64,000 nt of DNA. Source: a virus. Position 1 is the stretch's first letter; every line of letters begins with the position of its first letter. Location of the stretch: IMG/VR virus record IMGVR_UViG_3300028840_002524, positions 52,196-116,195 of that record; one strand, 5' to 3'. This document shows positions 13,613 through 45,752 of this stretch, piece after piece. The translations under genes were made by a program, and so were the position numbers. The notes beneath the pieces were generated by a model, which was not told the origin of the DNA, did no database searches, and saw nothing but the letters and a program-made list of their open reading frames with translations.

Positions 13613-14446
13613 ATGAAATACACCGTATTGCGGTACGAATACGACGCCGACGGGGAGACAAAGCGCAAGACGGCCATCTTGCCCGGGTTTTTTGGGCCGG
13701 GGAGTCCGCTCCTCGCCGCGTACCTGAAACGGGTACACCCCGAATACATTCCCCGGAGGCCGTCGGTGCGCCTCATGCAGTTCGACGACACGGTGCCGTC
13801 GTTCTATGACCTATTCGGGTACTGGAGTGCGTGCTCGGACTGCTCCCTCGGCGAGACGGCCAACAAGCGGGCCTTTTACAGGGGTCCCCTCACGGCCGAG
13901 ATCATGTGCATCGGAGAGGCCCCTGGCGCCGAAGAGGACCGCGTGGGGCTACCGTTCATTGGGAGGGCCGGTGACTTCCTCAACTGGCTCCTGGAACAGG
14001 CTGGAATCGACCCTGACGCCGTTTTGATCGCCAACACGACCCTCTGCCGCCCCACAGGGCCCTCGGGGAAGGACCGGCCTCCTACGCCCACCGAGGTGGG
14101 GGCCTGCATCAAACACCTTCGGGACCTCCTGCACGTCGTAAAGCCGAGGGTCGTGGTCCTCATGGGCGCAACGGCCCGGGATGCGTTCACGCGCTCGAAA
14201 ATCGACTGGGAAACGCGGTTCAGCCTGGACATCCCCACCACATTCGGCCTCATCCATCACCCCGCGTGGTTCCTGCGGAGCGGCGGGAAGGAGGCCAAGG
14301 AGGTTTCCAAGGCGACCGCGCTCCTGTATTCCCTCAAGGTGGCGGCCGAGCGAGGCCGTAAGCGCCTACGGCCCGAGGTTGAATGGGAGAACCTGTTGTG
14401 GCCCTCTGTCGAGCGGGCCATCAAGCACTGCAAGGGGGATCAATGA
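13613..14446 (+). CDS. family 4-type uracil-DNA glycosylase
   Basis: 277 residues. The motif GEAPGAEEDRVGLPFIGRAG (about residues 99-118) is the uracil-binding loop of family 4/5 uracil-DNA glycosylases; NTTLCRPTG follows, then a Gly-Ala-Thr-Ala segment and HHPAWFLRSG, the distal His motif. Cysteines at SACSDCSLG and in the middle fit the Fe-S cluster of this family. It would remove uracil from DNA in the cytoplasm. I take ATG 13613 as the start because the in-frame GTG at 13592 lies inside the promoter; no SD is present, so the mRNA is probably leaderless. The stop overlaps the helicase start. Confidence 0.85.
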   Translation: MKYTVLRYEYDADGETKRKTAILPGFFGPGSPLLAAYLKRVHPEYIPRRPSVRLMQFDDTVPSFYDLFGYWSACSDCSLGETANKRAFYRGPLTAEIMCIGEAPGAEEDRVGLPFIGRAGDFLNWLLEQAGIDPDAVLIANTTLCRPTGPSGKDRPPTPTEVGACIKHLRDLLHVVKPRVVVLMGATARDAFTRSKIDWETRFSLDIPTTFGLIHHPAWFLRSGGKEAKEVSKATALLYSLKVAAERGRKRLRPEVEWENLLWPSVERAIKHCKGDQ

Positions 14447-16662
14447 GCAAGAAGCCGAGCCCGGCCGCGATCCGGAAGGAAATCCTCAAGCGTACGGACA
14501 TAGACATGCCCTATGACCCCAACCCGATCCAGTGCGCCGGGTGGCAGGTTCTCCCGGACCACGAGGAGAATATCGTGGTGGCGACGCAGGCGTCCACCGG
14601 AAAGACCTTCTTCCTGGAGATGGCGCTCGCCCTGGGCGGCGGAGGCGTCTACGTGACCCCCACCAAGGCCCTGTGCGAGCAGAAACACGACGATTGGACC
14701 AAGGACGGCCACCCCTTCGGGCAGTCCATCGTGGTCAAGACAGGGGATCACCCGAGCGACAACGCCAAACTGCTCTCGAAACGCAAGTTCAAGCTCATGA
14801 CGCCCGAGGCGTTCGGGTCTGCCACGCGCAACCTGAATACGAACCTGTGGCTCAAGGACCTTCGAGCCCTCTGCCTGGACGAAATACACCATTTCGGGAG
14901 CGACGGCCGGGGCCACAAGCTCGAAGCGGGCCTCGTGGACTTCTTCAATTCGTTCCAGAATTGCCGTGTGATCGCCGCCAGCGCCACGTTGCCCAACGCC
15001 AAGGAGATCGGAACGTGGCTCACGCGCCTGAACGGCCGTGAAACATTCGTGATCGAGAGTCCGTGGCGCCCGCAGCCCCTCTACAAGCATTTTATCCCCT
15101 TCACCTACCTCCTCGGGAGCGGCTCCTACTACGTGAACGAGGTGGAGATGGTGAGCAACGCGGCCCAGCTCGCCATGAGCAAGCCCGACGAGAAGTACAT
15201 CTGCTTCGTGCACACGAAGAATGCCGGGTGGAAGCTGAAAAAGGCCCTCGAAGAGGCTGGAGAGCAGCCCGAATTCCACAATGCCGACCTGAACCTCGCC
15301 AAGCGCAAGGACCTGGAAGAGCGTTTCACGGCCGGGGACATCCGGGTCCTGATCGCTACCTCGACGGTGGCCGCCGGGTGTAACTTCCCGGCCCGAAACG
15401 TGGTGGTATGCGGGGTGTTCCGGGGGAAATCCGACGTGGACCCTCGGGACCTCATCCAGATGGGCGAGCGGGCAGGGCGCCCAGGCTTCGATCCGAAGGG
15501 GGACGCCTACTACCTCCTCCCGTCCCACGAAGTGGACAAGTGGAAGGAACTCCTCGCGTCACCCCCTCCCATCGCGTCCAAGATCAACGAGATTTCGAAC
15601 CTCGCGTTCCACCTGATCGCGGGGATTGCCAAGGGCCGAGTGACCAATGAGGCCGAGCTGGAGACGTGGTTCTCGAAAACCTTCGCTTTCCACACCGGCG
15701 AGCCGGTCACGGAGGCCAAGCACATCATCGACCGGCTCATGCGGGCCAAGGCCGTGGTGGTCGAGGACGGAAAGTGGGAAGCGACGGCCCTGGGACGTGC
15801 GGCCGCCAATTTCTACTACGATCCGTTCGACATCTTTGCTTGGCACGCCAACCTCCTGCGGCTCAAGGCCGTGGGGATGAAGGACCCGGAACGCATCCCC
15901 GACATCGTTCTCGCGTGGGTGTTCGGGAACGCCCCCTCCGGGTCCTCGGATTTCATCACAAAGGACTGCCAACCGTTCGTGGATATGGTCCGAAACCGGC
16001 TCGAACACGTGTCGATGCAGCTCGGTCTTGGTCTCCAGCCCATGAACACCATGATGGGCATCTCGGCGGCCTACGCGGCGCTGCAAGATCCCGAAGAGCA
16101 CCCGGATGATGGGTTCCCCGGGGGCATCCGGTTCGGAATGTTCAACCTCCAGGGCGACGCCGAGCGCATTGCGGCCGTTATGTGCTTCGTGAACGACAGC
16201 ACCAAGCTCGGGATGCGCGACGTGATCGAGAAAACCCTCATCCGGATGAAATACAGGGTGCCCTACGAGGCCGTGGCCCTGTGCCAGATCAAGCACGTAG
16301 GCGGCTCGCGGGCCATGGCCCTCCTGCGGCGCGGGATTAGGACACCGGCCGACGTGGTGGACAATGCCGACCGGGTGTCGGAGATGTTCGGCAAGCCGGG
16401 CGCCTGGATCGTGGATGATGCCGAGCGCCTCGCGCACAAGTCGGGGCATTCCAACCCCAAGTTCGCGGCCCACTCCTGGGCCACCAAGAAGAAGGAGGAG
16501 AAGAGCGCCCCGGCCAAGAAAAAGGGTGTCCCAAAGAAGAAGGGAATCAAAAAGGGAGTGAAGAAGGGAGTAAAAAAGGGAGTGAAGAAGGGCGTCAAAA
16601 AGGCCGTAAAGGGCCGAAAGAAGGGTGTCAAGAAGAAAATTAAACCCAAGAAAAAGGCGTGA
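14443..16662 (+). CDS. Ski2-like superfamily 2 helicase with basic tail
   Basis: 739 residues; the ATG overlaps the glycosylase stop (ATGA). Helicase motifs occur in order: QASTGKT (Walker A), YVTPTKALCEQ (Ia), CLDEIHHF (II, DExH), SATLPN (III), ATSTVAAGCNFPA (V) and QMGERAGRPG (VI). The C-terminal half contains a winged-helix/ratchet-like region as in Hel308/Ski2 proteins (AAAYAALQ, VALCQIKHVGGSRAMALLRRG, an HhH-like segment). Such enzymes unwind forked DNA or RNA with ATP. Residues from about 685 to the end are almost only Lys, Gly, Val and Pro (KKGVKKGVKKGVKKGVKKAV), a tail that recurs in several other proteins here. A start further upstream at 14383 would lie in the glycosylase gene. Confidence 0.85.
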   Translation: MSKKPSPAAIRKEILKRTDIDMPYDPNPIQCAGWQVLPDHEENIVVATQASTGKTFFLEMALALGGGGVYVTPTKALCEQKHDDWTKDGHPFGQSIVVKTGDHPSDNAKLLSKRKFKLMTPEAFGSATRNLNTNLWLKDLRALCLDEIHHFGSDGRGHKLEAGLVDFFNSFQNCRVIAASATLPNAKEIGTWLTRLNGRETFVIESPWRPQPLYKHFIPFTYLLGSGSYYVNEVEMVSNAAQLAMSKPDEKYICFVHTKNAGWKLKKALEEAGEQPEFHNADLNLAKRKDLEERFTAGDIRVLIATSTVAAGCNFPARNVVVCGVFRGKSDVDPRDLIQMGERAGRPGFDPKGDAYYLLPSHEVDKWKELLASPPPIASKINEISNLAFHLIAGIAKGRVTNEAELETWFSKTFAFHTGEPVTEAKHIIDRLMRAKAVVVEDGKWEATALGRAAANFYYDPFDIFAWHANLLRLKAVGMKDPERIPDIVLAWVFGNAPSGSSDFITKDCQPFVDMVRNRLEHVSMQLGLGLQPMNTMMGISAAYAALQDPEEHPDDGFPGGIRFGMFNLQGDAERIAAVMCFVNDSTKLGMRDVIEKTLIRMKYRVPYEAVALCQIKHVGGSRAMALLRRGIRTPADVVDNADRVSEMFGKPGAWIVDDAERLAHKSGHSNPKFAAHSWATKKKEEKSAPAKKKGVPKKKGIKKGVKKGVKKGVKKGVKKAVKGRKKGVKKKIKPKKKA

Positions 16663-17660: not shown

Positions 17661-18201
17661 GGCCCACATCCTGAAAACGCTCTTGTCGTTCGAGTTCATC
17701 CCCCGCCATGCCGGGGAGGAGCCCGTCATCGACACTGTGCACGACGCGACCTGGAAGTGCACCGTCTACCACATCGTATTCCCGGTCCAGCTATCCCTCG
17801 ACGGGTCGCTCATCGTGATCACCAACATCGACCGCGAGACGGGGGAGCCCACGCGGCCGTACATGATCGTCATGTTCGAGCATCCGTCTGGTGCCCTCTC
17901 CATGAAGGTGAACAGGAACTCTGTGTGGAGGCGCGAGCTCCGCAAGGCTGTGGGCTTTGCGATCTCGCTTTCCAGGGAACTCCTCTTCAACAAGCCCAAG
18001 GTCACCGACTATCCGGATGATCAGACGTGGGCGCAGGCCGCGAATGACGCCAGCGGCTTTAACAAGGCGCAATACGACAGAGCTCGTGCCCGGTTCAGGG
18101 CCTACGAGAAGGTACAAGAGAAGAAGGTTGTTCGGGGGCTCAAGAGGGGGTGCCCCGTTCGTGGTTCGGAGGCCGTAGCAGCATGGCTCAAGTCCGCGTA
18201 G
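17647..18201 (+). CDS. hypothetical protein, 184 aa
   Basis: Not recognised. The ATG at 17647 overlaps the upstream gene by 14 bases, and a longer frame starting at 17611 would overlap more without a ribosome site. Residues 30-90 form a strand-rich part (VYHIVFPVQLSLDGSLIVITNID), followed by helices with Arg/Lys clusters (RARARFRAYEKVQEKKVVRGLKRG) at the C-terminus that could bind nucleic acid. The phosphatase gene begins within its last codons. Confidence 0.6.
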   Translation: MQATEAHILKTLLSFEFIPRHAGEEPVIDTVHDATWKCTVYHIVFPVQLSLDGSLIVITNIDRETGEPTRPYMIVMFEHPSGALSMKVNRNSVWRRELRKAVGFAISLSRELLFNKPKVTDYPDDQTWAQAANDASGFNKAQYDRARARFRAYEKVQEKKVVRGLKRGCPVRGSEAVAAWLKSA

Positions 18202-18716
18202 GAATGGACCTGTGGCAACACGGGATCAAGGCGCTCGCCGGGAGCAAAAACCGCCTCTACAGGTCATGCCGTCCGGGGTATCCCCTCTCGGACGTGTCCG
18301 TCGAGGGCATAGACTCCTACATCAAGGACTGGGCCAAGCACAAGATCACCCACGTCCTTTGCCTCCTCACCGACGGGGAACAGCTCTGGTACTACGGCCG
18401 GGACCTCCTTGGCTTCTACAGGCGCCGGGGATTCAAGGTCATCAAGATGCCCATTCCCGACCATGGGTCGATGCGGATGGAGCACGCCAAGCGCACGTGC
18501 GAACAGGTCGCCAAGGCGCTCGGGGAAAAGGGAACCCGCGTTCTCGTTCACTGTTCGGCAGGGATGGGGCGCACAAGCATGGTGTTAGGTTGTGTAGCAG
18601 CATACATGAGTGTCTGTGGTCCACTTCGCGGGGTGAAGGGAACGGGCATCCCACAAACCCATTCCCAGGAACAGCTCATCTCGGAATACCGGAAGTGGAT
18701 CACGGGAGGCAAATAG
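18183..18716 (+). CDS. dual-specificity/tyrosine phosphatase-like protein
   Basis: 177 residues. The signature His-Cys-x5-Arg-Thr is intact: VHCSAGMGRTSMVLG (Cys nucleophile, P-loop Arg). Upstream, PIPDHGSM supplies the Asp expected as general acid in the WPD-like loop. This is a compact cysteine phosphatase acting on phosphotyrosine, phosphoserine or possibly RNA 5' ends or phosphoinositides; the sequence alone does not tell the substrate. ATG 18183 has GGAGG 10 bases upstream and overlaps the previous gene by 19 bases; a later ATG at 18204 directly follows the upstream stop but is badly spaced from an SD. It sits directly upstream of the replication initiator. Confidence 0.85.
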   Translation: MAQVRVGMDLWQHGIKALAGSKNRLYRSCRPGYPLSDVSVEGIDSYIKDWAKHKITHVLCLLTDGEQLWYYGRDLLGFYRRRGFKVIKMPIPDHGSMRMEHAKRTCEQVAKALGEKGTRVLVHCSAGMGRTSMVLGCVAAYMSVCGPLRGVKGTGIPQTHSQEQLISEYRKWITGGK

Positions 18717-18729
18717 CACAGGAGGACCA

Positions 18730-19821
18730 ATGCACAGCGAGGACTCTCTCCCTCTGAGTCAGCAGTTCAGGGAATCCGCCTATTTCAAGGACACGATACG
18801 CCCAGACGGGGCGTTCCTCTACGCCACCCTGCGACGCATCGCCCTGCGCGAGGCCCTCCCGGCCGACGTGCGGGCCACCCTCGGGCGAGGGTGCATCGCG
18901 GCCTGCGTGACCATCCCCGCCCTCTCGGCCCAGGTGGGCCGGTCGAAGAACACGGTACGCGCAAAACTCCAAGTTCTGGAGGACGCCGGGTGGATCCAGC
19001 GCAAGGAGCGCATCGGCCTCCCGTCCGCGTATGTTCTGGCCGACAGCTCGGGGTATTTCGCCGACAAAGTAATGCTCGCCATGGGCGAAGGACCCGTCTG
19101 TTCCGACGGGACCCCTCCAAAAATTGGAGGGGTGGCGAGAAAGGAAGCTACGCCAAAACGTAAGCGAGGGCGGAAGAAAGGTGTTCGCAAGCTGTCCGGA
19201 AGCTGCGGCGCAAGCTGCGCCGAGGCCGAGGATTATGGCGTATGCGGCAGCTTTCCGGAAGCTTTGGCCGTTTCAGACCCCTCCAAAAATTGGAGGGGTG
19301 GCGAAAACAATAATATAGGTAGATATATAGCTTCTTTAGATACTAATAATAGCTCTCCTCTTTTTGTTCACGCCACCCCTCCAAAAATTGGAGGGGTTCA
19401 AAACCCTCTCGAAAAACGCAAGCGCGGTTGGGAGAAGCTCCCGGTTGATCGGTGGGGGCACACGACCCTCTGGGCGATGATCTCCGACCGCCTCCTCGAA
19501 ACAGGAATCGCACCGCTAACCTTGGACACGAAATCCCGGGCTTCCATGCGGTCCCTTGCCAAGACCTACCCGATGGATGAGCTCCAGAGGGTGGGCGAGT
19601 TCTTCGCCGAGCACTACCGCGAGCTACGGAACGTGTACGACTGGCGGGGCTCCCCTCGGGGCGGCCTATTCGCCGGGTGGTATACGACGATCCGGGAGCA
19701 CGCCGACGGCCGCGCCATCACGAAGCGCGGAGCGAAGGAGAGCAAGGAACGGGGATCACAGAGCATGGACGAAATCCCGAGGATTCGAAAGTTCAAGGGG
19801 AGCAAGCATGCGACGCCGTGA
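18730..19821 (+). CDS. replication initiator with winged helix (lambda O-like), carrying the origin
   Basis: 363 residues with AGGAGG upstream of the ATG. Residues about 25-100 contain a winged helix-turn-helix (IPALSAQVGRSKNTVRAKLQVLEDAGWIQR). The middle (about 125-225) is low-complexity and includes RKRGRKKGVRK; this is the part whose DNA holds three palindromic iterons and an AT-rich tract. The C-terminal domain (WAMISDRLLETGIAPLTLD ... GLFAGWYTTIREHADG) probably contacts other proteins. The order winged-helix initiator, DnaC-like ATPase, DnaB-like helicase matches lambda O-P and similar replisome-loading modules. The product would bind the iterons inside its own gene and recruit the loader and helicase. 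Not similar enough by eye to lambda O itself to give a gene symbol. Confidence 0.75.
   Translation: MHSEDSLPLSQQFRESAYFKDTIRPDGAFLYATLRRIALREALPADVRATLGRGCIAACVTIPALSAQVGRSKNTVRAKLQVLEDAGWIQRKERIGLPSAYVLADSSGYFADKVMLAMGEGPVCSDGTPPKIGGVARKEATPKRKRGRKKGVRKLSGSCGASCAEAEDYGVCGSFPEALAVSDPSKNWRGGENNNIGRYIASLDTNNSSPLFVHATPPKIGGVQNPLEKRKRGWEKLPVDRWGHTTLWAMISDRLLETGIAPLTLDTKSRASMRSLAKTYPMDELQRVGEFFAEHYRELRNVYDWRGSPRGGLFAGWYTTIREHADGRAITKRGAKESKERGSQSMDEIPRIRKFKGSKHATP
19111..19133 (+). repeat. iteron 1 (perfect palindrome)
   Basis: ACCCCTCCAA, then AAA, then TTGGAGGGGT: 10 bp arms and a 3-base centre. Inside the initiator gene, in frame 0, read as TPPKIGGV. Confidence 0.85.
19207..19221 (+). repeat. 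secondary inverted repeat in origin region
   Basis: GGCGCA-AGC-TGCGCC lies between iterons 1 and 2 in a stretch that also repeats AGCT-x-TCCGGAAGCT. It could be a second protein site or a structural feature of the origin. Confidence 0.4.
19277..19299 (+). repeat. iteron 2 (perfect palindrome, other codon phase)
   Basis: Identical to iteron 1 over all 23 bases but shifted by one base in the reading frame, so it is translated as PSKNWRG. Conservation is therefore at the DNA level. Confidence 0.85.
19301..19370 (+). other. AT-rich candidate DNA unwinding element
   Basis: A roughly 70-base stretch rich in A and T (AACAATAATATAGG, AGATATATAGC, TACTAATAATAGC) lies between iterons 2 and 3 in an otherwise GC-rich gene. 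It is placed like the AT-rich region of the lambda origin. It encodes the Asn/Ile/Ser-rich part of the initiator. Confidence 0.7.
19375..19397 (+). repeat. iteron 3 (perfect palindrome)
   Basis: Same 23 bases as iterons 1 and 2, translated again as TPPKIGGV. Spacings between iteron starts are 166 and 98 bases. Confidence 0.85.
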
Positions 19822-20428
19822 ACTCAAACCCGAGTCGGTGGCCTCCGTCACCGAGGACATGCTGATCAATTCGGGTGTGCCCAGGAAATTCTGGAACGCC
19901 CAGCTTGGCGCCGTCGATGGCGATCCCGAGTTCAAGAGCCTCATCCGCGAGTTCATGCGGGACATTCACGAGCACGCCAAGGACGGTATGGGGCTGCTCC
20001 TCCGGGGCTCGTACGGGAGTGGCAAAACGTCCCTGGCGGTGACGCTCCTCAAGGTGGCGATACAGCGCGGGGGCCTCGCCCACTTCGTGCAGTCCCGCGA
20101 CCTCCCGGCAGTCTATTTCGACGACGCCACCATTGATCGGTCCTTCGAAGAGCCCATCGTGATCAAGGACCGCCTGCGCACGTGCAACCTTATCGTGATC
20201 GACGATCTCGGCGCGGAGTCTTTCGACACCCACGGGAACGCCGGTGCGCTGATCGAGGGGGTTCTCCGGGACGCCTACAACGAGGAGCAGATCGTGGTGG
20301 TCACGACAAACTGCAACGAGGGGGAACTCCGGTCCAGGTTCAACAAGGGGGTGATCAGTCTCCTCCACCGCATGACCACGGCAGTCGAAATCAATTCCGA
20401 CCAGTGGCAGAAACACGATGAGGATTAG
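19808..20428 (+). CDS. DnaC-like helicase loader ATPase
   Basis: 206 residues. Walker A GSYGSGKT (67-74) and Walker B LIVIDDLGAE (128-137) are intact; a sensor-1-like TTNCNEGEL and an arginine region (LRSRFNKG) follow, as in DnaC/DnaI-type AAA+ proteins. It would load the DnaB-like helicase encoded next. The start at 19808 has AAGGGGAG 6 bases upstream and overlaps the initiator stop by 14 bases; the frame is open further upstream but that is inside the initiator gene. Gene order (initiator-loader-helicase) is the best functional evidence besides the motifs. Confidence 0.85.
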   Translation: MRRRELKPESVASVTEDMLINSGVPRKFWNAQLGAVDGDPEFKSLIREFMRDIHEHAKDGMGLLLRGSYGSGKTSLAVTLLKVAIQRGGLAHFVQSRDLPAVYFDDATIDRSFEEPIVIKDRLRTCNLIVIDDLGAESFDTHGNAGALIEGVLRDAYNEEQIVVVTTNCNEGELRSRFNKGVISLLHRMTTAVEINSDQWQKHDED

Positions 20429-21712
20429 ATGGACATAGATTCATATTTCATTGGAACCCTCCTCGCCGAGGGGGACCCCACACAACTCAAGGGGATCAAG
20501 CAGGACCTCTTCGACGATGAGTGGCAGGACGTGTACGAGTACGTCGTGGGGTTTCTCAAGAAGTACGGCCGCCTCCCCCGCATCGAGACCGTGACGGCCC
20601 AGAAGGGGGTCGAGATCGAGGCGGGCAGCGAGCCGATGCGGTACTACGCCGACGAGCTCCGAAACCGGTCCATCCGAAATGCCCTGTCCAACGGCCTGCG
20701 AGAGAAGGTGTTTGCATCCCTCGACCAGGACAACGTGCCCGAGGCGTTCAAGGGGCTCAAGCACGTGGTGGCCGACCTGTCCAGGCGATACTACAACCGC
20801 GAGGAAACAGGTTCGGTGTCCATGCGCGAGGGCGTCAAGGATAGGGTGGCCTACTACCGGGAGCGCAAGGCGGCGAAGGGGGTCCTCGGGCTCCCCACCC
20901 CGTGGCCCACCCTCACCCGGGTGACGGCCGGTTTCCAGGGCGGCGACGTGATCGTGATCACGGCAAGGCCAGAGATCGGGAAAAGTTGGCTCGCCCTGAT
21001 CATCTCCGTTTTCCTGACCCTCGCGGGGTATCGGGTGGTGTTCTCCTCCATGGAGATGAAACCCAAGAAGGTGGGCATTCGGATGGACGCCATCGGTTCC
21101 CGCATCTCATCGGACCGCTTCCGCCGGGGCGTCCTCACGGCCGAGGAAGAGGCCCGGCTCAAGGTGTGGTACAAGCGGTGCCTGAACGATGAGAGCATGG
21201 GCGAGTTCTTCGCCTACGGGTCCTCGGACGTGGAGACCGTTGTGGACCTCGAACTCAAGGTCCTTGAGGACAAGCCCGACATCGTGGTGTGGGACTCTTT
21301 CTACCTCGCCAGCGAATCGCCCGACTGGAAAGACATGGCCCAGCTCACGCGGGATTGCAAGAGGCTCGCCGAGCGACCGGACATCGACGTGCCGATCATC
21401 CTGATCACCCAGCTTAGGCGCACGGTAAAGAAAACGGACCGCAAGGCCGACACAGCCGACCTCGCATTTACACAGAGTATTGTCAATGACGCCGACGTGA
21501 TCCTCAGCCTCTTTAGGACCTCCGACATGGAGAACCTGAACGAGATGCTCATCCGGTCCATCAAGATCAGGGACGGCGTGAAGCTCAAGGAACTCCTGAT
21601 CCAGTGGAACCTGGACACCATGGACTTCTCTGAGATTTATGCCAAGTTCACCGGCGGCACGAGCGGCCAGAAGTTCGACGAACACAAGGAGTCCAAGAAG
21701 GATGAAGATTAA
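20429..21712 (+). CDS. DnaB-like replicative helicase
   Basis: 427 residues, starting directly after the loader stop with GAGGA 5 bases upstream. The N-terminal 125 residues are helical (IKQDLFDDEWQDVYEYVVGF), like the primase-interacting domain. The RecA-fold part has Walker A ARPEIGKSW (179-187), MEMKPKKVGIRM (the E-M-K/S pattern after strand 2), PDIVVWDS (Walker B) and ITQLRR (motif H4). It would form a hexamer that unwinds the fork ahead of the polymerase. The Walker B shows Trp-Asp-Ser instead of the usual Asp-Tyr; this is a small departure from bacterial DnaB. Overlaps RNase H by 11 bases. Confidence 0.85.
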   Translation: MDIDSYFIGTLLAEGDPTQLKGIKQDLFDDEWQDVYEYVVGFLKKYGRLPRIETVTAQKGVEIEAGSEPMRYYADELRNRSIRNALSNGLREKVFASLDQDNVPEAFKGLKHVVADLSRRYYNREETGSVSMREGVKDRVAYYRERKAAKGVLGLPTPWPTLTRVTAGFQGGDVIVITARPEIGKSWLALIISVFLTLAGYRVVFSSMEMKPKKVGIRMDAIGSRISSDRFRRGVLTAEEEARLKVWYKRCLNDESMGEFFAYGSSDVETVVDLELKVLEDKPDIVVWDSFYLASESPDWKDMAQLTRDCKRLAERPDIDVPIILITQLRRTVKKTDRKADTADLAFTQSIVNDADVILSLFRTSDMENLNEMLIRSIKIRDGVKLKELLIQWNLDTMDFSEIYAKFTGGTSGQKFDEHKESKKDED

Positions 21713-22236: not shown

Positions 22237-23244
22237 ATGGATCGAGAGAGCATCCTCAAGTTGGCCGGTCTCCTCGGGATCAAGGCAGCGAGGGGGCGTG
22301 GAGCTAACATTCTGTTACAGTGCCCCTTCGCCGAAATCACCGGAGGCCACGCGAGCGCCGACGATGCGCGGCCGTCCTTCTCGGTGCTCGTGGACGATGC
22401 AGGTCCCTCGGCCTGCAACTGTTTCGGCTGCGGAACCCGGGGAACCCTTGTCTCGGTGCTGGCGAAAGCGGCACGGAAGCACGACGGGTTCGATGAGGCC
22501 CTCGCGTTTGCCAAGCGCGTCGAGAAGTACGACTTGGAGCGCGGCCTGGAGCGTGCCCTCCACCACGGCCCGAGAATTAGGGAGCGCGAGGGGGAGGGGG
22601 CGGCGTTATCGCGTACGCTCGCCCGATTCGTCCGGGCCTGCCAAGTCCACGTGCCCGGCTACGCCCTGGAGCGGGGCCTCACGCGCCACGAGATCGAGCG
22701 GTGGAACGTCGGCCTCGACGTGTTCGAGTACAGGGTGACCTTCCCGGTGTGGGACCGCGATGGCTCTCTCGTTGGGGTAATGGGGCGCACGGTCGTGGAG
22801 GGGGTCGAGCCGAAATACCTCGCCTACCACCAGTTCTCCACCGGTGAGCATTTCTACGGGGAGCACGATCTCGACATGACCGTGGATGAGGCCGTGATCG
22901 TCGAGGGCGGCCTCGACACCATCGTGACGCGCCGATTCCACCCCAACGCCCTCGGACTCCTCGGCCTGCGGCTCACCCCGGAGAAGCGAAAGAAGCTCAA
23001 GAAGTGGTTTTCCTCCGTGACGCTCCTGCTCGATTCCGACGCGGCCGGGACGGTCCAGGCCCTCTCCGAGGACGTGTTCACGATTCGGATGGGTCTCTGG
23101 CTGTCCAAGGTCATGCGGCTGTACGTCGCTATGCTCCCGTCCGGTGAAGATCCTGCGAGCGCCCCGGATGCCGTCCCGACGGCCTTAAAAAATCGAGTGC
23201 TTTGGGACTCTCTGGGACTCGACAAGTCGAAACTGATATGCTAA
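22237..23244 (+). CDS. DnaG-like primase
   Basis: 335 residues. The N-terminal zinc-binding segment contains Cys at LLQCPF, later His, and CNCFGCGTRG, i.e. a CHC2-like site. The TOPRIM part has VIVEGGLDTI and LLLDSDAAG, the Glu and Asp-x-Asp that bind metal in DnaG-type primases. It is shorter than bacterial DnaG (about 580), as phage primases without a helicase-binding domain often are. It would make RNA primers for the family A polymerase. The last 26 bases of the gene overlap a probable promoter for the following gene. Confidence 0.85.
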   Translation: MDRESILKLAGLLGIKAARGRGANILLQCPFAEITGGHASADDARPSFSVLVDDAGPSACNCFGCGTRGTLVSVLAKAARKHDGFDEALAFAKRVEKYDLERGLERALHHGPRIREREGEGAALSRTLARFVRACQVHVPGYALERGLTRHEIERWNVGLDVFEYRVTFPVWDRDGSLVGVMGRTVVEGVEPKYLAYHQFSTGEHFYGEHDLDMTVDEAVIVEGGLDTIVTRRFHPNALGLLGLRLTPEKRKKLKKWFSSVTLLLDSDAAGTVQALSEDVFTIRMGLWLSKVMRLYVAMLPSGEDPASAPDAVPTALKNRVLWDSLGLDKSKLIC

Positions 23245-23293: not shown

Positions 23294-23315
23294 CACAAGT
23301 TTGGAGGACACAGGT

Positions 23316-24212
23316 ATGGGATTCGCAACACGCGGGATGGGGGAGGCGAACAACGTCCCTTCCTCATCGAGGGTCAAGCCGCAGTTCGAAAAGCGTCTCT
23401 TCCTTCGCCCTGGGGATGAGATGGACATCGTTCTGCTGGACGACAATTCATTCAACATCTGGGAACACGGGATGTTCCTCAAGGGCGACAAGCAGGCGTC
23501 CAAGATCAAGGTCACCTGCCCCGACGGCACGGCCGACGGCGACCCCAAGGAGTGCCGAATCTGCAACGCCATGATTCGCCACGACCTCATCGGCCGCAAC
23601 TGGAGAGGGTTCCTCACCGTCGTGGACCTGTCCAAGCGCACCTGGAGAGGCAAGACGTACGTTGACGTGAAGAAGCTTCTCCCGCTGGACAAAAAGACGG
23701 CCATGATCCTGGAGCGCAAGCGGGACAAGCGCGGATCCCTGGTGGGGGCGCAGATGCACCTCTACCGCACGGACGGGAACTCCAGCTCCGTGGGCGACGA
23801 CTGGGAGCTCGTGGACATCGAGGACCCCAAGAAGCGGTTCAAGAACTCCCCCCAGATCGAGCGTACCATCGACTGGGCCAAGAAGAAGGACGGCACGATC
23901 CTGACGCGCAGTCAGGCCCTCGCCGTGTTCTGCTCCCCTTACGACTACAACGAGGTTCTCGCCCCCGATGCCAAGAAGGTCCGGTACTTCCTGGCCTACA
24001 TGGGAATCGACGATAGCGTCCAGGGCGGCGAGGAGGAGCGCGAGGAGGAGAACAACACCGTCGAGTACGGCAATCCCGAAACGCCCCCGGACGATGGAGT
24101 CGAGGAGGGGGGAGAAGAACGCCAGCGGGCGCCTGCCAAGAAAGCCGGGAAGAAAAAGGGTGTCAAGAAGAAGGGCGTCAAGAAGAAGGGTGTCAAGAAA
24201 AAGGGACGCTGA
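23316..24212 (+). CDS. candidate single-stranded DNA-binding protein with acidic then basic tail
   Basis: 298 residues; GGAGGA 7 bases before ATG 23316 fixes the start (a TTG at 23301 in the SD region was rejected). Residues 25-160 look like an OB-type domain with a Cys-x2-Cys (ECRICNA) insertion, similar in plan to zinc-containing phage SSBs such as T4 gp32 (strands MDIVLLDD, FLTVVDLSKR, TYVDVKKLLPL). A strongly acidic stretch (EEEREEENN ... EEGGEE) follows, typical of SSB C-termini that recruit partners, and then a final basic tail of four KKKGVKK-type repeats. Position between primase and polymerase, with its own promoter, fits an abundant SSB. The family is not proven by eye. Confidence 0.6.
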   Translation: MGFATRGMGEANNVPSSSRVKPQFEKRLFLRPGDEMDIVLLDDNSFNIWEHGMFLKGDKQASKIKVTCPDGTADGDPKECRICNAMIRHDLIGRNWRGFLTVVDLSKRTWRGKTYVDVKKLLPLDKKTAMILERKRDKRGSLVGAQMHLYRTDGNSSSVGDDWELVDIEDPKKRFKNSPQIERTIDWAKKKDGTILTRSQALAVFCSPYDYNEVLAPDAKKVRYFLAYMGIDDSVQGGEEEREEENNTVEYGNPETPPDDGVEEGGEERQRAPAKKAGKKKGVKKKGVKKKGVKKKGR

Positions 24213-27977: not shown

Positions 27978-28640
27978 ATGGCGAAGAAGAAAAAAGGACG
28001 CGGCAGGCCACCGAAGCACAAGTCTGAAAAGGCTCGGAGCAAGCATCGCCGTGAGCACGGTCTCCAGTATTACCAGGACAACAAGGAGGAGATCAGCAAG
28101 AAGCGGGCGAAGCGGTGGAAGGATGACCCGGAGTACCGGGAGCGTGTCCGCAAGCGCGGGGAGGAGGAACGTGCGCTCCAACGGGCCAAGAAGCACGAGG
28201 AGCGTCTGGGGGAGGACAAGATCAAGAGCGAGCAGTATTGGAAAGGGCGCCGCACGCTCACCCCTCGCGTGGTGATGCTCGGCGGCAAAGAGGCGACCGT
28301 TTTCTCCTCCGGGGTCCTCGGCCGTGCGGTCTACCGAACGATGCCCACAGTCCGACGGTGGATCGTCAACCGCGTGCTGCCCGGCTATTCGTGGCAGGAC
28401 GAACACGGCCGGTACTGGTTCACCAGGGAGTTCTGCCAAGCGGCCCGAAGGGCCATCGAGAAGGTGTACCTGTACGACGGGCGCCGGGGCGAGACCGTGA
28501 CGAGGCAGCTCCTCATCGAGGAGCTCACGAGCGCAGGCATTACTTGGAGCCCCTTCGATGAGCCAGCCAAGAAAAAAGGGCGTAAGAAAAAAGGCCGTAA
28601 AAAAGGCGCCGGGAAGAAAGCGGGAAGTAAGTCTCGGTGA
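27978..28640 (+). CDS. DNA-binding protein with MerR-like helix-turn-helix and basic tails
   Basis: 220 residues. The first 95 are strongly basic and helical (KKKKGRGRPPKHKS ... KKRAKRWKDDPEYRERVRKRGEEE), including a GRGRPPKH AT-hook-like motif. Residues 105-160 resemble the MerR/excisionase winged HTH (SSGVLGRAVYRTMPTVRRWIVNRVLPG ... GRYWFTREF). The C-terminal 25 residues are KKKGRKKKGRKKGAGKK. It probably binds DNA, perhaps as an architectural or regulatory factor. The last 83 bases are also the start of the next gene in another frame. Confidence 0.65.
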   Translation: MAKKKKGRGRPPKHKSEKARSKHRREHGLQYYQDNKEEISKKRAKRWKDDPEYRERVRKRGEEERALQRAKKHEERLGEDKIKSEQYWKGRRTLTPRVVMLGGKEATVFSSGVLGRAVYRTMPTVRRWIVNRVLPGYSWQDEHGRYWFTREFCQAARRAIEKVYLYDGRRGETVTRQLLIEELTSAGITWSPFDEPAKKKGRKKKGRKKGAGKKAGSKSR

Positions 28641-31263: not shown

Positions 31264-32046
31264 ATGAAAGAGATCAGGAAAAAGGAATTCGCCAACGGCT
31301 CCGTCTACGCCCTCGAAACGCACGATGGCTATCCGGTCGAGGTTACTGATACCTTTTTGCCGTTCTACACGAAAGACGCAATCGGCAGGCGGCAAAACGC
31401 CCTGAACACGCATGATCTTGGCAGCAGGGCGGAGCGATGGATGATAGGCGTTTCTGTGATGAGCGGTTGCCCTGTTGGTTGTCGCTTCTGCGCCACAGGA
31501 CAACTACCGAGGTGGAGGCGACTTGGTGCGGGTGAAATCATAGACCAAATCCGGTTTGTCCTTGAGCGAAGAGATGAACGATTCGAGGACGCGAAGGAAT
31601 ACAAGATCAATTATACGAGGATGGGGGAACCATTCTTAAACACCGAACAAGTCAAACTCGCTGTTTTATGGGCAGACCTTGCTACTCCAGGCGTTCACCA
31701 GTACATCTCAACCATTGGCATTGAAGGATCGGACTTTTCATGGATCAGGAATGACGCAACCCTTCAAATTTCCCTGCATTCATGCGACGAAAAGAAAAGG
31801 GACTGGCTTATCCCATACAAGCGGAAAATGAGCATTGCCGATCTTGGGAAGATTCGAACAGAAAGCAATCTGAAAACCACCTTGAATCTGACTTTGGTGG
31901 ATGAGCAGGATTTTGATATTCGTATTCTGAAGGACCATTTTCCAAAAGAAGAATTCTTCGTGAAACTCAGTCCTATAAACCGTAACGCGATCTCTGATTC
32001 CCACGGCCTTGGAGGCGGGGCAATCAGGACCGCAAACCTGATTTAG
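31264..32046 (+). CDS. RlmN/Cfr-like radical SAM protein, N-terminal and core part
   Basis: 260 residues. The Cys-x3-Cys-x2-Cys cluster SGCPVGCRFCATG binds the 4Fe-4S cluster and SAM; TRMGEPFLN, STIGIEGSDFSW and LQISLHSCDEKKRDWLIPYKRK line up with the GEPLxN, ST-G and SLHA-xx-RD-L-P motifs of RlmN/Cfr, which methylate adenine 2503 of 23S rRNA (RlmN also tRNA). The usual C-terminal catalytic-Cys segment (ACGQL) is absent here and occurs in the next frame (32055-32174). GC is lower than surroundings. ATG 31264 follows GGGAGG. It may be a split or frameshifted gene, or a two-subunit enzyme. Confidence 0.7.
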   Translation: MKEIRKKEFANGSVYALETHDGYPVEVTDTFLPFYTKDAIGRRQNALNTHDLGSRAERWMIGVSVMSGCPVGCRFCATGQLPRWRRLGAGEIIDQIRFVLERRDERFEDAKEYKINYTRMGEPFLNTEQVKLAVLWADLATPGVHQYISTIGIEGSDFSWIRNDATLQISLHSCDEKKRDWLIPYKRKMSIADLGKIRTESNLKTTLNLTLVDEQDFDIRILKDHFPKEEFFVKLSPINRNAISDSHGLGGGAIRTANLI

Positions 32047-34223: not shown

Positions 34224-34253
34224 ATGCCCTGTCCAAGGTGGAGGTTTCAGCGT

Positions 34254-35027
34254 ATGGACCTGTTCTCCGAGAAAGCAATTCGGAAACTCACACCGGGCGA
34301 GATCAGGCTCCAAGTGGAGTCGATTGCGTCCGGAATTCACCAGAACAACTACGCCCTGGGGGGCTTCATTCAGCGGGTCCGGTCCGACGGCCTGTGGAAG
34401 AAGTGGGGAAAGAGGACCTTCCAGTCCTTCGGCGACTGGTGTTGGGCCATCCTGGGGTTCAAGGATCGAAAGGCCGAGGAGCTCTCCAAGATCCACGGGC
34501 GCCTCCAGGAACTCGAAGTCTCCGGGAAGGTCAAAAGCGAGCTCGTGAATCAGGGATGGACCAAGCTCCGGTTCCTCTCCCGGGTTGTGGATGAGGACAA
34601 CGCAAAGGAGTGGCTCGACAAGTCGAAGATGCTCTCCTCGCGTGCCCTCGAAGCGGAGGTCCGCATCGCCAGCGGCGACCCCGATCCCGATACCGAGGAC
34701 GGCGACGATCCTGACCCGGAGCCGAAGCCCAAGCGCGTCCGCATGGGCCTGGAGTTCGACCACCCCGACGACTTCCGCTTCGTGACTGATATTATGGCGG
34801 TAATCGAGCGCCGCACCGGGGAGCGCAGCAACGGTCGTATTATCTCCATGATGGCGACAGCCTACGCGGCCATGCACGTCCGGGACGATGAGGGTGGCAT
34901 GGCGGTCGAGGTCGAGCGGATGCTCCAGGCCATGGAGCGCGACTACGGCATCCAGCTCGGCATCATGAACCCGGTGCACAAAAAGGGCAGGAAAAAGGGC
35001 GTGAAGAAGAAAGTCAAGAAAGCGTGA
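34254..35027 (+). CDS. hypothetical DNA-associated protein with KKGVKK tail
   Basis: 257 residues with GGAGG 10 bases before ATG 34254. An N-terminal all-helical domain (QVESIASGIHQNNYALGGFIQRV ... FGDWCWAILGF ... SELVNQGWTKLRFL) is followed by an acidic linker (DPDPDTEDGDDPDPEPK) and a second helical domain (FRFVTDIMAVIERRTGERSNGR). The last 15 residues are KKGRKKGVKKKVKKA. The first domain resembles small phage DNA-binding domains with Trp pairs, but no family is clear. A promoter immediately upstream and the shared tail suggest a role with DNA. Confidence 0.6.
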   Translation: MDLFSEKAIRKLTPGEIRLQVESIASGIHQNNYALGGFIQRVRSDGLWKKWGKRTFQSFGDWCWAILGFKDRKAEELSKIHGRLQELEVSGKVKSELVNQGWTKLRFLSRVVDEDNAKEWLDKSKMLSSRALEAEVRIASGDPDPDTEDGDDPDPEPKPKRVRMGLEFDHPDDFRFVTDIMAVIERRTGERSNGRIISMMATAYAAMHVRDDEGGMAVEVERMLQAMERDYGIQLGIMNPVHKKGRKKGVKKKVKKA

Positions 35028-42991: not shown

Positions 42992-43021
42992 TCAAGCATT
43001 CGAACGTGATTGGAGATGCAC

Positions 43022-43615
43022 ATGGATGACGAAAAACGGGCCCTTCTCCACGAGGCCATCATGCTCAAGGGGAAGCTTGACTTCTTCGAGAAGAAGTACA
43101 AGGAGACCAAGGCGGCCCTCCGGATGCTCATGGAGGAGGACGGCGATGCTTTCCTCGACACGGAGGACGGCAGGGCGTTCTACAAGAGCGGATCGGCCAC
43201 CATGCTGACCGATGACGGCGCCACCATCGCCCGTCTCCTGCACAAGGACGAGCTCGTGGACCTCATCGCCGGGAAGAAGCTCACGAAGGGGGATGCAAAT
43301 TTCCTCCTCACGGTCACCACCGGCCGCAACATCTCCAAGCTCCTCACCGAGGTTCCCTCGCGCTCCTTCACCGCCGAGAAAGCCCGTACCAAGGCCGAGA
43401 AAGCCCGTATGCAGGCGGCCATCGACGCGGAAGCCGAGGAGGCCATGAAGGACCTCCGCGAGCGCGTGAACCGCTTCCGCAAGCGCCTGGGCCTGGGGCG
43501 TAGCGAGCGCCTCGGGGAGCCGAAGGGCAGAGCGGCCGCGTACAGCGGAAAGGGGCGCCCGAGGAAGGGCGGAAAGCCCGCGAAGAAAAAGGCCGCGAAA
43601 GCGAAAAAGAAGTAA
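43022..43615 (+). CDS. coiled-coil protein with basic C-terminal tail
   Basis: 197 residues; ATG 43022 chosen because GGAG is 6 bases upstream (an earlier frame start at 43010 is the SD region itself). Long helical stretch with acidic and basic repeats (EKKYKETKAALRMLMEEDG ... EKARTKAEKARMQ), a short strand-rich core (FLTVTTGRN-type), and a final basic region (KGRPRKGGKPAKKKAAKAKKK). It resembles small phage gene-157-like recombination-associated proteins only in general plan. Function unknown. Confidence 0.6.
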   Translation: MDDEKRALLHEAIMLKGKLDFFEKKYKETKAALRMLMEEDGDAFLDTEDGRAFYKSGSATMLTDDGATIARLLHKDELVDLIAGKKLTKGDANFLLTVTTGRNISKLLTEVPSRSFTAEKARTKAEKARMQAAIDAEAEEAMKDLRERVNRFRKRLGLGRSERLGEPKGRAAAYSGKGRPRKGGKPAKKKAAKAKKK

Positions 43616-44349: not shown

Positions 44350-44383
44350 GGGGGCGGCCTACGGGTCGCCCCCGCTTTTTTTT
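44350..44383 (+). terminator. strong intrinsic terminator
   Basis: GGGGGCG (44350-44356) and CGCCCCC (44367-44373) pair, followed by GC and eight T (44376-44383). Ends the 43022-44315 unit. Confidence 0.9.
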
Positions 44384-44384
44384 G

Positions 44385-44406
44385 CGACTGTCGGTAGCGA
44401 CAGTCG
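44385..44406 (+). repeat. inverted repeat after terminator
   Basis: CGACTGTCG-GTAG-CGACAGTCG, 9 bp arms, followed by a T-rich run. It may be a second terminator, or a protein-binding site in front of the ParB-like gene. Confidence 0.55.
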
Positions 44407-44427
44407 TTCATTTTTTTACCATTTCTA

Positions 44428-44456
44428 TGTGCAATCGCACTGCGATATGGTACACT
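44428..44456 (+). promoter_or_regulatory. promoter with operator-like palindrome before ParB-like gene
   Basis: TACACT (44451-44456) preceded by TGG (extended -10), with a poor -35 (TGTGCA, 44428-44433). In the spacer lies the perfect palindrome ATCGCA-C-TGCGAT (44434-44446), a likely operator. Confidence 0.55.
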
Positions 44457-44498
44457 CCCGGTTGTCAGCACAGTGAATCCGCAGCACAGGAGGATGCT

Positions 44499-45752
44499 AT
44501 GGGCAAGAAAAAGGGAGTTCGCAAGGCCGTCGGTGGCGGCAAGAAGAAGGGTGTCAAGACGCCCAAGAACCGGCACATCGTCGGAACGTATGTGAACACC
44601 AGCACGCTCCGGGAGGCGCCCGATCTCAAGCTCCGGGAGGTGGACAAGGAGTCTGCCGAGTTCAAGGAGCTGGTGGCCTCAATCGAAAAGCACGGTTTCT
44701 ACGACCCCATTCTCGTGACCATCCGGGACGGCTTCCCGCACGTGGTGGACGGTTACAACCGTCTTGCTGCGGCCCGGGAGGTGGGCCTCAAGGAAGTGCC
44801 CATCACGCAGGCCGACGGTACGCGGGAGAAACTCATCCTCGCGGCATTCGACCTTTCCACCCGGCGGATCAACATGAGCGCCATGACGGAGGCTCGCGCC
44901 GTCGCCAGGGCCATGGAAGCCCTCGGTACCCGAAAGGCCAAGGAGGTGGCCGAGCGGATGGGGCGCTCAGAGCGATGGGTGTCGATCCACACGCAACTCC
45001 TCGACCTCCCGAAAGCCCTCCAGAAGGGGCTCGACGGCGGCGACACCAACGTGACCGTGGGCAAGTGCTACGACCTCCTGCGCCTCCATCCGGATGACAG
45101 GTCCAGGTTCGTGGGGAAATTGCGTGAGCTCACGGAGCCGTTCTTTCGGGACCACATCGAGACGGCCGTGCAGAACGGCAAAGCCCAGTGGGTGGACGGA
45201 CGCAAGCAGCCTCGCAAGAAAAAGGCCGCCAAGAGGACCCCCGAGGAGCAGGCCGACAAGCACCGGCACACTCCGGAGACCGTACGGGAAACCCCGGCCG
45301 CGCCCGTGGTGACCGTCTCGGGAACTCCTGAGCCCGTTGTCGAGGCCCGTTCGGTGGGCGAGCTCCAGCGCGGGATCCGCAAGGCCGAGGCCAGCCTCCA
45401 GAAGTACGAGAACAAGAGGGAGGCAACGGCGGCCAAGGCCAAGGAGAAAGTGAAGGACAAGCTCAAGGGGAAAGCCCTCCAGGAGTACGTGGAAGAGCGC
45501 CTCGCCACCTTCGACAGGAAGAACTACGGACAGATCGTGTTCCTCCGTGGGCAGATCGCGTTCGGTCTCTTCTCGTTGAACCTGAACCCGGACGCGGACA
45601 GCCTGGAGGCCGCCCTCAAGGAGTGGCGCAAGGAAAAGGGCCTTGACAAGCCCGCGAAGAAAGCGGCCAAGAAAAAGGCGTCGAAGGGGAAACCCGCGAA
45701 GAAGAAAGCGGCCAAGAAGAAATCCCCCAAGAACAGCAAGGGCAAGAAGTAG
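44499..45752 (+). CDS. ParB-like DNA-binding protein with basic ends
   Basis: 417 residues, AGGAGGA before ATG 44499. Residues 35-100 form the ParB N-terminal domain (EFKELVASIEKHGFYDPILV ... VVDGYNRLAAAREVG with the conserved GxxR-like nucleotide site region) and residues 130-180 the HTH (RKAKEVAERMGRSERWVSIH). The C-terminal half has long charged helices. Both ends are basic: GKKKGVRKAVGGGKKKGVK at the start and KKAAKKKASKGK repeats at the end. No ParA gene is nearby. It could act in genome segregation, gene regulation, or as a chromosome-associated protein. Confidence 0.75.
   Translation: MGKKKGVRKAVGGGKKKGVKTPKNRHIVGTYVNTSTLREAPDLKLREVDKESAEFKELVASIEKHGFYDPILVTIRDGFPHVVDGYNRLAAAREVGLKEVPITQADGTREKLILAAFDLSTRRINMSAMTEARAVARAMEALGTRKAKEVAERMGRSERWVSIHTQLLDLPKALQKGLDGGDTNVTVGKCYDLLRLHPDDRSRFVGKLRELTEPFFRDHIETAVQNGKAQWVDGRKQPRKKKAAKRTPEEQADKHRHTPETVRETPAAPVVTVSGTPEPVVEARSVGELQRGIRKAEASLQKYENKREATAAKAKEKVKDKLKGKALQEYVEERLATFDRKNYGQIVFLRGQIAFGLFSLNLNPDADSLEAALKEWRKEKGLDKPAKKAAKKKASKGKPAKKKAAKKKSPKNSKGKK

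Follow-up and report, generated by a model that had tools for sequence, protein, structure and literature searches.

The question raised by this locus is whether a large uncultured tailed phage starts its replication inside the gene of its own initiator. The window analysed, 64,000 nucleotides long, spans positions 52196-116195 of IMGVR_UViG_3300028840_002524, a viral contig of 116,195 bases, and coordinates below are those of the window unless stated otherwise. From the letters alone, the original prediction proposed a lambda-like origin at 19111-19397, within the gene of a winged-helix protein. Our analysis leads us to regard this segment as very probably the replication origin, placed in lambda/SPP1 style inside the gene of its own initiator, which would bind as dimers, melt the DNA and recruit a loader and DnaB. 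The gene and the segment comprise the following features.

18730..19821, plus strand: putative initiator gene (363 aa), with an N-terminal winged-helix domain, a low-complexity linker that holds the origin and a helical C-terminal domain, as judged from the ORF, weak wHTH matches, predicted secondary structure and a homologue.
18913..19041, plus strand: codons of the helix-turn-helix and wing (residues 62-104), with the predicted recognition helix at about residues 72-85.
19111..19137, plus strand: iteron 1, a sequence repeat made of the palindrome 19111-19133 and the flank GGCG at 19134-19137, pointing right.
19186..19267, plus strand: AGCT-centred short repeats between iterons 1 and 2, including CGGCGCAAGCTGCGCCG.
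19277..19303, plus strand: iteron 2, palindrome 19277-19299 and flank GGCG at 19300-19303, pointing right into the AT-rich tract.
19304..19370, no strand: AT-rich tract, likely a DNA unwinding element, defined by AT content and nearest-neighbour energy.
19371..19397, minus strand: iteron 3, palindrome 19375-19397 and flank CGCC at 19371-19374 (GGCG on the minus strand), pointing left into the AT-rich tract.

The palindrome ACCCCTCCAAAAATTGGAGGGGT is present in the window in three exact copies, all inside ORF 18730-19821, compared to an expected count of 0.00 in dinucleotide shuffles, in agreement with the three identical 23-base palindromes originally described. Each copy consists of 10-bp perfect arms around AAA. 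The core pattern has no further match anywhere in the 116,195-base contig, which contains only two other perfect 10-arm palindromes, and 16-mers occurring three times inside 1.5 kb are found at the palindromes and at two other clusters (contig ~377 and ~34,400). The copies start 381, 547 and 645 nt from the ATG, with spacings of 166 and 98 bp, and these distances modulo 3 are 0, 1 and 0. The second copy is accordingly read in another codon phase, as had been noted before, giving the peptide DPSKNWRG instead of TPPKIGG.

Searches with the helicase, the initiator profile, the loader and the primase all led to the same close relative, IMGVR_UViG_3300017991_000005 (131 kb), the only one found, so that every two-phage comparison below rests on two sequences. 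The two phages share 58% identity in the initiator, 70% in the loader, 79% in the DnaB helicase and 74% in the primase. As a single sequence, the initiator found no relative among the viral contigs, and the genome collection yielded none. A scan with the palindrome pattern returned no viral contig and three bacterial contigs with one copy each in AT-rich surroundings, which were taken to be unrelated.

The relative's initiator gene (L004 3299-4393) also contains three 23-bp dyads, ACCCAGGTCAAAATGACCTCGGT, ACCCAGGTCAATTTGACCTGGGT and ACCCAGGACAATTTGACCGGGGT, at 393, 550 and 645 nt from the ATG and in codon phases 0, 1 and 0, matching those of the present phage. Since both phages show this phase pattern, conservation does not lie in the peptide, which bears out the earlier view that selection acts on the DNA. 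The comparison shows that the palindromes are unique repeated sites under constraint at the DNA level. The two dyad types are mutually exclusive: each phage carries its own type three times and lacks the other. The half-site core reads ACCC-CTCCA-AA here, compared to ACCC-AGGTC-AA in the relative; both phages keep ACCC and the inner AA, but in all six half-sites the central CTCCA found here is replaced by AGGTC, apart from three single-base deviations in the relative. In addition, the relative carries two extra half-sites beside copy 1, in direct tandem with 10-bp spacing and each in a different codon phase.

Outside the dyad the sites are asymmetric. Every copy carries on one side a constant flank, GGCG at 3/3 copies here and GTCTG at 3/3 in the relative, so that the repeat extends beyond the 23 bp of the palindrome. 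Of random site triplets drawn from the same genes, about 3 in 10,000 shared four identical flank bases and no more than 1 in 20,000 shared five. The flanks point right, right and left in both phages, so that copies 2 and 3 are oriented towards each other, with the AT-rich tract between them. This directional flank is a new detail in the sequence, added to the earlier observation.

The DNA between copies 2 and 3 stands out in the contig. The stretch 19304-19373 is the AT-richest 70 bp of the whole contig (71%), just where an AT-rich block of that length had been pointed out, and the AT-richest 40- and 100-bp windows of the contig also lie inside this tract. The same is true of the least stable 30-, 50-, 70- and 100-bp windows calculated from nearest-neighbour energy, with a stability at 50 bp about six standard deviations off the contig mean. 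Moreover, within the 17 kb examined in the relative, the least stable DNA also lies between its copies 2 and 3.

These comparisons bear on a different reading, in which the palindromes act not as DNA sites but as RNA hairpins in the initiator mRNA, serving as an attenuator, a terminator or a translation control. We consider this highly improbable. Strong folding (z -3.3 to -4.8) is indeed seen for each of the three copies in this phage and for the relative's copy 2, but copy 3 of the relative folds no better than shuffles (z +0.4), though each of its half-sites is only one base off the consensus, and the direct tandem half-sites of the relative cannot pair with each other; lying in different phases, they fit protein binding and not an RNA hairpin. 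No U-run follows the palindromes, and terminator-like sites do not exceed the number expected by chance. A search of Rfam gave no family at gathering score, its only sub-threshold hairpin matches being caused by the palindromes themselves. In addition, hairpins would leave the placement of the copies around the least stable DNA of the contig unexplained.

The protein encoded around these sites has a predicted winged helix in its N-terminal part. Its predicted secondary structure runs H-E-H-H-E-E, a winged helix at about residues 56-104, and several wHTH Pfam models match residues 57-106, all below cut-off and indicating only a generic winged helix. The linker (about residues 118-195), which holds most of the putative origin, is predicted to be disordered, and the C-terminal domain is predicted to be helical. 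The winged-helix protein of the original prediction thus gains weak support from the sub-cut-off Pfam models and the predicted fold. AlphaFold models of the initiator are poor, with a mean pLDDT of 39 for the full length and 54.6 for the N-terminus. Fold matches of the weak N-terminal model include viral replication initiators, a replisome organizer and an O protein, but none of the PDB matches of the initiator models reached E 0.001, and they lend weak support because the fold model is poor. Likewise, the predicted winged-helix layout is support and not proof, as model confidence is low; within such models, the domain order would fit the O-family plan of a DNA-binding domain, an origin-bearing linker and a C-terminal domain that contacts the loader. 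Phage replication-initiation PHROGs match the initiator at the edge of significance, and a protein search against 50,697 named phage records gave no match.

Compared to its relative, the initiator shares 60% identity over the N-terminal 120 residues, 35% over the linker and 71% over the C-terminal 141 residues. Within the N-terminal domain, only 4/11 of residues 72-82 are identical (36%), and nearly all of the lowest 11-residue identity windows fall at residues 69-88, spanning the predicted recognition helix. In this pair of sequences, therefore, conservation within the domain is lowest at the predicted recognition helix (about residues 72-85). Low identity at residues 69-88 together with concerted change of the sites would be the pattern predicted by a shared change in DNA specificity, in which the recognition helix would read the site sequence and both would change together between related phages.

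Two further similarities were seen in the linker: CGGCGCAAGCTGCGCCG (19206-19222) is identical in the relative, where the repeats lie at L004 3760-3835, in a linker that is otherwise divergent, and much of the peptide GASCA...GVC.SFP is likewise common to both phages. Among more distant phages, a scan of L007-L011, Aeromonas HJ05 and Rhizobium RHph_Y1_11 for repeats or dyads revealed no repeated long dyads; for the Gordonia and Brevibacterium records, the comparison covered gene order only. In RHph_Y1_11, the gene at the initiator position (L017 4503-5435), ahead of DnaB and RNase H genes, has a weak DnaD/O-like match and an AT-rich middle with C-rich stretches and short repeats, without clear iterons. 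It is a possible distant within-gene origin.

The initiator gene is followed by a cassette of replication genes.

19808..20428, plus strand: helicase loader of DnaC/IstB type (PHROG 50, 3e-21), its start overlapping the end of the initiator gene.
20429..21712, plus strand: DnaB-type replicative helicase (PHROG 19, 3e-56).
22237..23244, plus strand: DNA primase.

The assignment of the next two genes to a DnaC-like loader and a DnaB-like helicase, made earlier from the sequence alone, is therefore borne out by both PHROG matches. The genes of the initiator, loader, DnaB and primase are closely spaced and share one orientation, and farther downstream are found a PolA-type polymerase, a further helicase and a RecA/UvsX-like recombinase.

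Several other features of the contig were observed. Directly upstream of the initiator is a dual-specificity/tyrosine phosphatase-like gene (18150-18716), and a similar ORF lies upstream of L004 3299 in the relative. Lysine-rich C-terminal tails such as KKAGKKKGVKKKGVKKKGVKKKGR are present on several proteins (14383-16662, 23301-24212, 27978-28640, 34224-35027, 43010-43615 and 44382-45752), including a helicase and a protein encoded between the primase and the polymerase; three proteins in the replication region of the relative (L024) have similar tails, which might be a shared nucleic-acid-binding or targeting tail. A radical SAM protein (31264-32046), just under the Pfam cut-off, lies in a low-GC stretch (54-55% vs about 62%). 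Outside the putative origin, the operator-like 16-mer TAGCGACAGTCGTTCA has five copies (contig 377, 463, 1416, 15315 and 96590, the last at window 44395), one of which overlaps the perfect palindrome ACGACTGTCGCTACCGACAGTCGT.

Dyads bound by winged-helix dimers are typical operators, and promoters can sit in AT-rich DNA. The palindromes might thus be operators of the replication operon, bound by the winged-helix protein or another regulator, while the origin lies elsewhere. We give this reading as little credence as the RNA hairpins, since the palindromes lie mid-gene, neither the upstream region nor any other part of the contig has a copy, and no sigma-70-like promoter was found at 18000-21000. 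A combined role in origin function and autoregulation is possible. Still less credible is a mobile or recombination repeat, such as a REP-like palindrome or a recombination site, that landed in the gene by chance: the repeats are exact and undiverged, and three bacterial genome contigs hold similar lone palindromes, but the dyads of the relative differ in sequence yet share homologous positions and orientation, neither contig has copies elsewhere, and the bacterial matches are single and in AT-rich surroundings.

The reading as an origin can be set against two characterized systems. In lambda, O dimers bind inverted-repeat iterons inside gene O, beside a 40-bp AT-rich tract (PMC5043065; PMC7466680). 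As in the present phage, dyad-symmetric iterons and an easily melted AT-rich tract lie in the middle of the initiator gene, the next replication gene overlaps its end, and the iterons fall in different codon phases, computed as 0, 2, 2, 1 in lambda compared to 0, 1, 0 here. The first lambda iteron, ATCCCTCAAAACGAGGGA, also resembles the core of the palindromes. However, the four 18-bp iterons of lambda are arrayed in tandem at intervals of 20-24 bp, all on one side of the AT-rich tract, whereas here three 23-bp sites, 98-166 bp apart and each with a directional flank, lie on both sides of it. The lambda iterons are described in PMC5043065 without site direction, unlike the directional sites here. 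Moreover, lambda borrows the host DnaB, whereas the present phage encodes its own DnaB, primase and polymerase.

Similarity of the initiator to the lambda O family is limited to the O-like PHROGs 391 and 678, at E 0.014-0.4 and over the wHTH alone. As this is not significant and the sites, spaced by 166 and 98 bp, do not form a tandem one-sided array, we do not class the protein as a member of that family. What stands of the lambda-like origin originally predicted is its mode of action and layout class, with which the sequence agrees, and not O-family membership.

In SPP1, oriL lies inside gene 38 and works with the loader gp39 and the helicase gp40 (PMC6316719). The 38-39-40 cassette resembles the present one in having the origin inside the initiator gene, followed by phage genes for a loader and a DnaB-type helicase. 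The SPP1 sites, by contrast, are direct repeats, and SPP1 has another origin, oriR, at a distance of about 13 kb, whereas the contig here has no second cluster of palindrome sites. In sequence and layout, the locus is a putative within-gene origin whose iterons are widely spaced, polar and placed on both sides of the AT-rich tract; it belongs to large phages with replication machinery of their own, would work like the lambda ori and has a cassette like SPP1 38-39-40.

Two other indicators of origins were considered. No DnaA box (TTATNCACA with at most one mismatch), as expected of a host DnaA-dependent origin, was found at 18700-19900. The GC-skew signal that had been suggested as a check did not appear: cumulative GC skew has no turn at the site, and its nearest minimum, near 12 kb of the window, is confounded by gene orientation and so uninformative.

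Altogether, the preference for an origin comes from sites that are unique and repeated, the least stable DNA of the contig beside them, the gene cassette, and a relative with the same architecture. Binding of the initiator to the palindromes and a replication start here are inferred from the sequence and from these analogies. The 363-aa winged-helix protein would bind each 23-bp palindrome as a dimer, and binding at the three sites would bend or strain the DNA, thereby melting the AT-rich tract between sites 2 and 3. Judging from gene content, lambda and SPP1, the initiator would then recruit the phage loader, which would place the phage DnaB on the opened strands, and the phage primase and PolA-type polymerase would follow.

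The joint divergence of initiator and sites also has a lambdoid parallel. Furth and Yates reportedly studied, in 1978, the replication specificity of lambda-phi80 and lambda-82 hybrids (cited in PMC6022878). As in the type-specific O/ori pairs of lambda, phi80 and 82, the initiator and its sites diverge together between related phages, whereas here the phages are two uncultured ones of more than 115 kb with non-tandem sites, and a change of specificity is read from sequence only. A further, tentative proposal, which we find possible but on balance doubtful, is that the polar iterons converge on the melting tract from both sides and allow symmetric loading of two helicase rings by the initiator, one on each strand, and that the phages form a natural orthogonal pair in which a change of the recognition helix rewrote the flank and all six half-sites but left the scaffold as it was.

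The finding assigns a likely origin to a group of large uncultured phages with an initiator unmatched among named phage records, and shows the plan of a putative within-gene origin in phages that themselves encode helicase, primase and polymerase. The two phages provide a matched pair for testing a joint change of initiator and site specificity, with every site within coding sequence, and the polar two-sided sites would offer a concrete test of how two helicases may be loaded at a phage origin.
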